Positions 4,663 through 18,066 of a DNA stretch of 33,967 nt are shown here, in pieces. Source of the DNA: an uncultured Alphaproteobacteria bacterium (GTDB lineage Bacteria > Pseudomonadota > Alphaproteobacteria > Sphingomonadales > SMXR01); NCBI GenBank assembly GCA_937126915.1, contig CAKZLM010000031.1, positions 77,825-111,791 on the forward strand. Direction: 5' to 3'. Each line of letters starts with the position of its first letter. Positions within the stretch are counted from its first letter, which is position 1. A program made the translations under genes and the position numbers. Below the pieces are notes generated by a model. It worked only from the letters and a program-made list of their open reading frames with translations, had not been told where the DNA came from and searched no databases.

Positions 4663-5139
4663 TTAATCAGCTTTTTTTGCAGCTGGTTTTTTAGCTGCAG
4701 CTTTTTTCGGTGCGGCCTTCTTTGCTGGAGCTTTTTTCGCCGCAGGTTTTTTTGCAGGCGCTTTCTTTGCTTCAGCAGCGTCGCCTTCAGCTTTCTTAGC
4801 TGGGGCTTTCTTGGTAGCAGCTTTCTTAGCGCCACCAATTTCAGTAATTTTCAAAATAGTCACTGATTGACGGTGACCATTTTTACGACGGTAGTTGTGA
4901 CGGCGCTTTTTCTTGAAGATGATAATTTTGTCATCACGCTTTTGCTCAAGAATTTCAGCAGTAACAACAGTGCCATCTAGAAGGGGAGAACCCACTTTAA
5001 CACCTTTGTCATCGCCAGTCATCAATACCTCAGCCAATTCAACTTTGTCGCCAGCAGCGCCTTCAAGTTTCTCGACCTTGATAATGTCATCTTTTGCGAC
5101 ACGATATTGTTTGCCGCCAGTTTTTACAATTGCGAACAT
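4663..5139 (-). CDS. rplU: 50S ribosomal protein L21 with Lys/Ala-rich C-terminal extension
   Basis: L21 binds 23S rRNA domains and stabilises the large subunit. Residues 1-103 are the normal domain: [18 protein letters not shown] at the start, then KVGSPLLDG and [17 protein letters not shown] with its rRNA-binding basic cluster. Residues ~107-158 are a low-complexity tail built of [11 protein letters not shown] units, giving 158 residues against ~103 in E. coli. Similar tails are known in alphaproteobacterial L21. They look disordered and strongly cationic, so extra RNA contact is plausible but not shown. AGGAAAAG lies before the ATG. The gene heads the transcript from the promoter at 5304-5331, with a structured leader of roughly 155 bases. 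Confidence 0.97.
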
Positions 5140-17300: not shown

Positions 17301-17603
17301 GCGATGGAGCTTCCGGGACAAATTGATCAGCTAGGCGTTGATCTGCAAAAATTGCGTATCAGTTTGTTTGGTGACAGGGTTAAAGGCCGCTTAAATGTGG
17401 CAGCGCCTGAAAGCATTGCGTCGCGCTTATGGGGCAGTATGGCGACCAGCTCGCGCGAGGCACCAACCCAAACTCAACGCGATAATTTTGCGTTGGTAAA
17501 ACAAGGTTTGGCAGAAACCGACGCTAAGATGAGCCAAATGCAGCAACGCATGGACACGCTTGAAGCCGCCCTTGAAGCAGCAGGTGCCCCAAGCTGGCGC
17601 TAA
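14343..17603 (+). CDS. Exported sortilin/VPS10-like BNR-repeat beta-propeller protein
   Basis: The function is not established; databases often call relatives glycosyl hydrolase or sortilin-domain protein without proof. Residues 1-30 are a signal peptide (MGMVSAMALAMTVQSPVSLSQ). The rest to about residue 760 is a propeller built from Asp-box (S/TxDxGxTW) repeats, with about ten visible, for example SLDGGETW, TTDGGKTW, STDAGASF, SFDQGKSW, SDDRGNSW, SDDGGANW and STNKGRSW. The N-terminal MREIGPALMGGRIAHIEVDP is the usual opening of this family. Residues ~860-960 look like a beta-sandwich (LEILNEAGQPVRILPL...), and the final ~130 residues are helical. AGGGAGGG precedes the ATG. Such proteins often sit beside exported peptidases, as here, and may bind peptides or glycans. 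A strong terminator follows. Confidence 0.85.
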   Translation: MKQKHTKILMGMVSAMALAMTVQSPVSLSQNLNMDAVEKAVSAMQMREIGPALMGGRIAHIEVDPNNPTTWFVAAGSGGVWKTDNAGVTFTPVFDEQKSYSIGTIAIDPKNSDVVWVGTGENVSGRHVGWGDGLYKSLDGGETWTNMGLERSEHIGRILIDPRDSNVVYVAAEGPLWNAGGDRGLYKTTDGGKTWNLILSIDENTGVTDVEFKPGDPDTLYAATYERRRHIWGLMAGGKGAGIHVSTDAGASFKRVTKGLPKGDMGKIGLAVTPADPSLVYATIEANDKEKGFYRSVNSGQSFEKRNSYISGGTGPHYYMEIEASPTDPDTVYQMDVFMRVTKDGGKTFEMAEDGWSKHSDNHALWIDPKNDKHMLIGSDAGMYESFDQGKSWRHFGNMPISQFYKVAADNAEPFYNILVGAQDLGTLYGPSRTMHTDGVRNKDWSVPAGADGYNVAFDPFDNNIQYMEFQEGYMFRVDGTTLENMPIQPKAAPGDPALRFNWDTPIVPSQHVEGRLYTASQFVWKSDDRGNSWTKVSPDLTTNTNRYELGYRGRQWSVDALHDNGAMSQYATLTTMSESALDANLLYVGSDDGLTHRSDDGGANWTKLGKFSGVTDRAFINDIEASLHDQDNVFVVVDAHKVGDYRPLVYKSTNKGRSWRSIAGDLPEDLILWSIQQDHVNPDLLFLGTENGVYASINGGKNWDKMGGTPTIAFRDIVIHRRDNDLIGATFGRGVYIMDDYTALRDLAANGMAAGALPVRDAWWYIPNNPMQAQGQPTLGSSSYRAENPDFGAMIDVYLTDIAKTMKEQRREGEKSLREKGDDVGFPGFDRLTEESLEVDPEYYLEILNEAGQPVRILPLKAKEGLQRVTWDLRYPAMAPIDLSTPGFKPPWASDPEGVLVAPGTYKAMVTTKINGQISQIGSIQSFTVKPVDNMAVPQDYAATAAYWAEVAEQQRHMGVISEKIARMADLLRHMKVAVVNAPRAAMELPGQIDQLGVDLQKLRISLFGDRVKGRLNVAAPESIASRLWGSMATSSREAPTQTQRDNFALVKQGLAETDAKMSQMQQRMDTLEAALEAAGAPSWR

Positions 17604-17643
17604 TTAATTAGTGATAGTCACTAACTTTTGAATCTAAATGAAA

Positions 17644-17678
17644 AAGCCAGAGGGTGACTAGCCCTCTGGCTTAATTTA
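17644..17678 (+). terminator. Terminator of the sortilin-like gene
   Basis: AAGCCAGAGGG (17644-17654) pairs perfectly with CCCTCTGGCTT (17662-17672), 11 bp around a 7-base loop, followed by AATTTATT. It lies 40 bases past the stop. Confidence 0.8.
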
Positions 17679-17706
17679 TTATAATTAAAGAGAAAAATCA
17701 GAGTAA

Positions 17707-18040
17707 ATAGTAACCGTCACTATTTTTTATGCGTGCCTCCAGAAAAGTTTTCACTTTTCTATGAGACGCGCTGACGGCTCGGAATTGCGTTCGCAATTCG
17801 ATAGAGCTGGTTCTGTGATCGCGCTGAAATCGCCATCAGTCTTGATCAGGGAACATCAAACATTGTGAAAACAATTCACAGCCTTGAGCGCGTTCCATAG
17901 CGTAGGTGAAAACCGCAGCAGGGAACATCAAACATTGTGAAAACAATTCACAGCCTTGAGCGCGTTCCATTGCGTAGGTGAAAACCGCAGCAGGGAACAT
18001 CAAACATTGTGAAATCCCGATCGCGAAACAACAACATAGT
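17707..18040. repeat. Hairpin-rich intergenic element with 72-bp tandem repeats
   Basis: This is the gene-free stretch between two convergent genes. It opens with two perfect hairpins: AGAAAAGT-TTTC-ACTTTTCT (17741-17760) and GAATTGCG-TT-CGCAATTC (17782-17799), the second inside an outer GCTC/GAGC pair. A 72-bp unit then repeats head to tail: copy 1 at 17847-17918, copy 2 at 17919-17990 (one base differs), and a 24-base partial copy at 17991-18014. Each full unit has GGAAC...GTTCC arms enclosing two mutually exclusive stems, ATTGT-GAAA-ACAAT and TGTGAA-AACAA-TTCACA. The flanks 17707-17726 and 18036-18055 match in 16 of 20 positions. It looks like a mobile or dispersed extragenic element or a structured RNA; which of these is unknown. 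Confidence 0.75.
17836..18000 (-). other. 54-residue open frame made of the 72-bp repeats
   Basis: Because 72 is a multiple of three, the minus strand is open through the repeats from an ATG at 18000 to a TGA at 17836. The 54-residue product is made of a 24-residue unit beginning MERAQGCELF and ending AAVFTYA. No ribosome-binding site is seen before it. Most likely a by-product of the DNA repeat, recorded because it would otherwise be missed. Confidence 0.2.
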
Positions 18041-18066
18041 ACCCGTCAATTATTTGACGGGTTTTT
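18041..18066 (+). terminator. Plus-strand terminator at the end of the repeat element
   Basis: ACCCGTCAA (18041-18049) pairs perfectly with TTGACGGGT (18054-18062) around TTAT, followed by TTTTT. The T-run is on the plus strand, so it would end transcripts coming through the repeat element. It overlaps the stop codon and last codons of the minus-strand S9 peptidase gene. Confidence 0.7.

Follow-up and report, generated by a model that had tools for sequence, protein, structure and literature searches.

Hairpin units between two convergent genes

The window, that is, the whole stretch of 33,967 nucleotides that was analysed, carries at 17707-18066 a 360-base element that comprises three copies of a unit of ~73 nt, each consisting of hairpin 1, a 12-nt box (GCGCTSAMGGCT) and hairpin 2. 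The element is flanked by two convergent genes, one for a Sortilin/BNR-repeat protein on the plus strand, ending at 17603, and one for an S9 peptidase on the minus strand, with its stop codon at 18050-18052. Behind the left gene, a genome pattern search and the sequence itself revealed a decayed copy of the palindrome AGTRACNGTYACT (TAGTGATAGTCACT, 17609-17622, C31:95433-95446, assigned to no strand). The left gene then has its intrinsic terminator (17644-17672), a hairpin that was scored as two-way by the terminator scan and lies between two palindromes. The second of these is the left terminal palindrome of the element, an exact motif match at 17709-17721 that reads AGTAACCGTCACT and then ATTTTTT; this palindrome and T-run match the motif upstream of the Y1 transposase gene described below. 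An arrangement like that at 17609-17721, in which an intrinsic terminator is flanked by a pair of AGTRACNGTYACT-like palindromes, was also seen without any hairpin unit at C171:1739-1857 (L235 / L221 ~1490-1620).

Unit 1 (17730-17803, plus strand, B half) was detected by the covariance model R1 with 67.2 bits and consists of hairpin 1 at 17735-17767, the box GCGCTGACGGCT at 17768-17779 and hairpin 2 at 17782-17799. The two perfect hairpins that the sequence-only reading had noticed are found here, AGAAAAGT-TTTC-ACTTTTCT at 17741-17760 and GAATTGC-GTTC-GCAATTC at 17782-17799. By alignment, the spacer of the head-to-head dimer occupies 17804-17855 and is in part shared with other dimers; GGGAAC in this stretch is what remains of one more truncated unit. 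Unit 2 (17856-17931, minus strand, A half, R1 67.6 bits) has its hairpin 2 at 17862-17875, its box at 17880-17891 (AGCCTTGAGCGC on the plus strand) and a hairpin 1 with the stem GTTCC/GGAAC. Unit 3 (17928-18003, minus strand, R1 69.8 bits) is a tandem copy of unit 2 with a period of 72 bp, as found by TRF, and 24 nt of a truncated fourth unit follow at 17991-18014 on the minus strand. The array at 17847-18014 was reported by TRF as 2.3 copies of 72 bp with 98% matches and a score of 329, and a single base differs between the two full copies (CCATAGCG / CCATTGCG); the copy number and the one difference agree with what had been read from the sequence. The stem ATTGT-GAAA-ACAAT, described in that reading for each unit, was located at 17862-17875 and again 72 bp further on. 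When the loci are read across the genome, the natural unit proves to be ~73 nt long and does not coincide with the 72-bp block delimited by the tandem finder.

At the right end of the element a decayed palindrome (AGTACCCGTCAAT, 18038-18050, two differences from the motif) was recognised by eye and is suggestive; by eye, too, it now lies within the 5′ arm of a terminator hairpin. This hairpin, CCCGTCAA-TTAT-TTGACGGG-TTTTT at 18042-18066, overlaps the S9 peptidase stop codon. The sequence-only reading had called it a plus-strand terminator, and hairpin and T-run do stand there on the plus strand, but the terminator scan scores the hairpin on the minus strand, and the terminator at 17644-17672, which is the stronger of the two, had escaped that reading. 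Folded as single-stranded DNA, the whole element gave z = -3.8. Elsewhere in the window, an imperfect 15-bp tandem repeat at 4668-4830 lies at the 3′ end of the ribosomal protein L21-like gene, where it encodes a lysine/alanine-rich tail.

A dispersed, covarying unit and its heterodimers

The sequence-only reading had proposed to search the segment against its source genome and to fold aligned copies by covariance. The BLASTN search returned 35 matches, spread over clearly more than ten places, and a covariance model built from an alignment of 37 units gave 55 matches in the 2.8-Mb genome, 53 of them strong. A tandem repeat confined to a single locus was thereby rejected, as was a known Rfam family, none of which matches the window. 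The 53 units, below the >100 often seen for REPs, fall into 25 clusters, none inside a long gene or ORF. Most lie near 3′ ends of genes, and of the 18 loci at which both neighbours could be read, about 11 are flanked by convergent genes, an approximate count from simple ORF calls. The suggestion that this is a dispersed extragenic element was thus borne out, within its own genome and, for box and stem, in many alphaproteobacteria. Many BLASTN matches fall at the ends of contigs, where the repeat probably interrupted the assembly, and with many units at such ends the array lengths are lower bounds. At two of these ends, those of C54 (L098 right) and C13 (L101 left), a terminator stretch is shared as reverse complements, and the two contigs probably join beside hairpin units. 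Tandem runs with a spacing of ~70-75 bp were found on ten contigs (C35, C24, C171, C151, C54, C93, C55, C37, C25 and C31). Therefore the 72-bp tandem of the window is no special feature but an ordinary local expansion for this family, shared with some ten other loci.

Each unit reads from a T-run/TTG through hairpin 1, which has 5-bp arms (e.g., GTTTC...GAAAC) and an inner stem, to the box and hairpin 2. Hairpin 1 measures ~33-35 nt, within the range of REPs, which are palindromic stem-loops of 20-40 bp. Both hairpins covary very strongly. In the 37 aligned units, 89% of the pairs in the two-hairpin structure are standard, and 96 changes affect both sides of a pair; the covariation score of the structure is 0.532 compared with 0.186 ± 0.016 after shuffling (reached in 0/500 shuffles), and it falls to ≤0.18 when the structure is slid by 1-3 columns. 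For 42 model-aligned units, an alignment that favours the structure by construction, the score was 0.575 versus 0.188 ± 0.016. The stem variants include GTTTC/GAAAC, GCCTC/GAGGC, GTTCC/GGAAC, GTCTC/GAGAC, GCTTC/GAAGC and GCACC/GGTGC. Among 532 cells there were 11 G·T pairs (G-U in RNA) and 14 A·C mismatches. That G·T is not in excess argues for pairing at the level of DNA over an RNA fold, and because of it, and as no Rfam family matches, the modular structured RNA also considered in the sequence-only reading is not supported, real as the covariation is. The loop is strand-specific: in 3.9 kb of units GCTTTCGC occurs 42 times and its complement GCGAAAGC not once. The strand opposite the loop, d(GCGAAAGC), and in some relatives d(GCGAAGC), correspond to DNA mini-hairpins of exceptional heat stability (PMC4686876). 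No GT[AG]G (or CGTC) tag was found at the hairpin foot, the four bases before the stem being mostly TGTT, TTTT or GTTT.

In clusters of mixed orientation the plus units always precede the minus units; the sole exception, a cluster of seven units, consists of two adjacent composites of this type. In all nine dimers an A half faces a B or C half head to head, and the dimers share spacer sequence. The box of the A half reads ...CTCAAGGCTG, and that of the B or C half ...CTGA[AC]GGCTCGG or RTGCCGCAGGCG. Folded as DNA, one dimer gave a box stem that is closed by TTTTTGTT/AACAAAAA and carries four hairpins (z = -3.2). We do not claim that pairing between boxes is backed by covariation, the C variant RTGCCGCAGGCG being unable to pair with the A box.

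Beyond the source genome, BLASTN of the segment (E ≤ 0.001) gave no match in 39 relatives, and the exact 52-base unit was found in no other genome. The covariance model detected a divergent set of 14 units in a genome of the same family (G001), and some further genomes of the order have 1-5. A pattern of the 3′ arm plus the box (arm3 + box) was found at 65 loci in ~85,000 species genomes, mainly in Emcibacteraceae, Kordiimonadaceae, Maricaulis, Hyphomonas, Hyphobacterium, Woodsholea and other marine alphaproteobacteria; an estimated ~8 matches are expected by chance, and the coding-like ones in Treponema, Shewanella, etc. are of that kind. The 5′ arm, which was outside the search pattern, complements its own 3′ arm in 38/67 cases in the named genomes, compared with 9.6 after shuffling and a maximum of 19 in 2000 shuffles. 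The sequence-only reading had linked database junk proteins containing MERAQGCELF with a widespread element. This peptide is the minus-strand frame ATG GAA CGC GCT CAA GGC TG., that is, the conserved arm and box read through, and therefore the idea fits; a literature search for MERAQGCELF gave no match. A comparison with an empty site through the S9 peptidase gene yielded none, as in G016 (55-56% identity), the nearest relative that has this gene, another gene stands beside it and synteny is not conserved.

In Maricaulis and its allies the unit often lies behind a tRNA gene, starting 8-12 nt behind the CCA. Towards its end the Maricaulales unit shows TTCGA, resembling a T-loop, always in one position, and 10/12 units have CCA; its last bases match its own neighbouring tRNA better than other tRNAs (60 identities versus 46 shuffled, p = 0.0012). 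These tRNA-linked units (L141, L146, L154, L164, L167, L181, L188, L189, L193, L197, L201), some of which are in tandem, end in what resembles a decayed tRNA 3′ half. None of the units in the genome of the window was found near a tRNA gene.

Outer ends and the Y1 transposase

We examined the 37 outer ends of the unit clusters. At eight of them AGTRACNGTYACT stands 0-8 nt before the unit, compared with 0.7% in the random control, and at about ten the unit starts on or close to the T-run of an intrinsic terminator (control, 3.7%); palindrome and terminator together were found at 0/37. The palindrome is present at only ~9 of the 25 loci. As terminal inverted repeats it is exact at both ends of C31:24820-25014, decayed at some other loci and absent at the terminator-linked ones, and no target-site duplication was recognised by eye in the T/A-rich flanks. 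Abundance of the palindrome as a repeat by itself is not supported: with at most one mismatch it is no commoner (13/14) than its reversed control (25/29), and it is exceptional only in its position beside units.

The source genome has a single Y1_Tnp gene (Pfam Y1_Tnp above cut-off), with a product of 221 aa that contains the motifs HIH and YVELNP and scores 79.4 bits against NCBIfam REP_Tyr_transpos, where the cut-off is 80. Upstream of the start of this gene, on contig C35, are the palindrome AGTGACGGTCACT at 47 bp and three tandem units at 67 bp. Hairpin units adjoin the gene on this side only, and no second palindrome with ≤1 mismatch was found downstream of it on the contig. By a rough estimate from one array and one gene, the chance of an accidental array beside the gene is 1-2%.

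The closest relative of the transposase is a 48%-identical protein in G019, a genome of another family of the order, with AGTGACAGTTACTTTTTT upstream of its gene. That genome also holds a MITE-like repeat of ~100 bp bounded by AGTGACAGTTACTTTTTTT ... AAAAAGGTAACTGTCAC, the same ends as upstream of its Y1 gene; sites of the repeat are at L239 ~1500-1640 and L037 ~1410-1500. Several related transposases in the order are instead preceded by GGGGACAGTATAC-like motifs, which match the GGGGWSAS terminal inverted repeats (TIRs) described for ‘TIRYT’ genes (PMC3733652, PMC6006769). Motifs of the GGGGACAGTATAC type lie near the Y1 genes at L038, L041, L042, L044 and L058. Members of the TIR-associated subclass, which the transposase of the source genome resembles, have been described with flanking TIRs and without REPs (PMC6006769). 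No units were found near the transposases of relatives, and several unit-carrying genomes (G001, G025, G033 and G059) have no Y1_Tnp gene; therefore the transposase cannot be the whole story of the units everywhere.

Origin of the units and relation to known systems

We are highly confident that the element is a REP-like dispersed DNA repeat. More specifically, it probably belongs to a family of non-autonomous, REP/REPIN-like mobile repeats that acts at the level of DNA and is moved in trans by the Y1 transposase, a judgement that weighs the REP-like part most; that this transposase mobilises the units through the palindrome is by itself plausible, with a little less than even support. We infer from the sequences that the units are mobile and that their active form is single-stranded DNA. 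In the proposed mechanism, the unit is two hairpins around a 12-nt box, unlike A and B units face each other, and the dimer would fold as a four-hairpin cruciform when single-stranded. The inverted AGTRACNGTYACT with its T-run, which bounds dimers and tandem runs at many loci, is likely the terminal repeat of the single Y1 (HUH, TIRYT/RAYT-type) transposase, and of the Y1 subgroup that includes the G019 enzyme, while the hairpin arrays would be cargo. The transposase most likely moves dimers or arrays in trans as MITE-like cargo, with the T-rich strand that follows a terminator or another 3′ end as the predicted place of insertion, and the 72-bp tandem of the window arose by local duplication of a unit. 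The family would then be mainly selfish; the element is probably a small DNA parasite and not an RNA with a function.

The placement at 3′ ends beside terminators, the covariation in both stems and the GAAA tetraloops on one strand are also what one would expect if the units were RNA elements of transcript 3′ ends, either extra terminators or 3′-UTR stem-loops that protect the mRNA, with selection on the RNA fold. We regard this as improbable, given that G-U pairs are not in excess, that the units of each dimer face both ways, that unit copy number is not conserved across genera, that Rfam has no match and that many units begin after a complete terminator. In another reading, with no part for the Y1 enzyme, the unit would be a self-contained element of single-stranded DNA or retro type whose insertion sites lie behind transcript 3′ ends, and the palindrome would be just one more favoured landing site. 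It would account for the outer ends (about ten) that abut terminators without a palindrome, for the Maricaulales units behind tRNA genes with their tRNA 3′-half-like end, and for units in genomes without a Y1 gene. We consider it unlikely, as it names no candidate enzyme and fits poorly with a palindrome association far above chance in the source genome and with three units beside the transposase gene itself. A related possibility, also rather unlikely in our judgement, is that the box-hairpin unit represents a separate alphaproteobacterial class of mobile elements inserting behind transcript 3′ ends, at terminators in the source genome and at tRNA genes in Maricaulales, where they would copy or capture the tRNA 3′ half; they would perhaps borrow an available Y1 TIR. 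Host-selected protein-binding sites kept for chromosome structure and not for mobility, of the kind that has been proposed for REP/BIME with gyrase, IHF or replication-termination factors, would agree with the conservation of the box GCGCTCAAGGCTG across several alphaproteobacterial groups and with the intergenic, mainly convergent positions; this is the least likely of the explanations, and very unlikely, as copies are few and unevenly distributed among relatives (53, 14, 1-5) and we know of no protein that binds the box.

To return to the favoured reading, a REP-like repeat with a Y1 transposase, one genome here joins REP-like hairpin repeats and TIR-associated Y1 transposases, described apart so far, with a terminal palindrome that can be tested. 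A structured repeat family is also added, whose box is shared by several groups of alphaproteobacteria, and if it is true that the units target terminators and tRNA ends, the site choice of REP-type elements becomes directly testable. No mention of a hairpin-unit family with a conserved box was found in the literature searched. In the tyrT operon of E. coli, rtT repeats lie behind a tRNA gene, some in tandem, and each finishes with a duplicate of the tRNA 3′ end. They may be compared with the Maricaulales version only; the copy in the window is not near a tRNA.

As in REP/REPIN (BIME) systems with their RAYT (TnpA_REP), the units are short extragenic palindromes in tens of copies with compensatory stem variants, they form inverted dimers of defined polarity and local tandem clusters, and, as in a REPtron, the one Y1 gene of the genome has units beside it, on its upstream side. 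Where REPINs or BIMEs are defined by inverted REPs with a conserved spacer, we found nine plus/minus dimers of fixed polarity with a partly conserved spacer. Unlike in those systems, there is no GT[AG]G tag, each unit has one hairpin more and a long conserved box, only A/B heterodimers occur, and the transposase resembles the TIR-associated subclass. Because the GTAG tag is missing, we do not file the family as canonical REP. TIRYTs/TIRtrons (PMC3733652; PMC6006769, subclass 2.1) share with it a Y1 gene with HUH and Y---NP motifs and a self-complementary terminal palindrome upstream of the gene that is also dispersed and paired in the genome, but here the palindromes bound REP-like hairpin arrays, read AGTRACNGTYACT and not GGGGWSAS, and have no downstream TIR that we could find. 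The CGTC-tagged alphaproteobacterial repeats (PMC3733652) are likewise short stem-loops, mostly in head-to-head dimers with heterodimers common. They have no transposase gene beside their units (PMC3733652), whereas here one adjoins the units, the CGTC tag is absent, and stem and tail differ. The hairpin-unit family is best described as a new one, REP-like, heterodimeric and partly TIR-bounded, of a kind that is already known.
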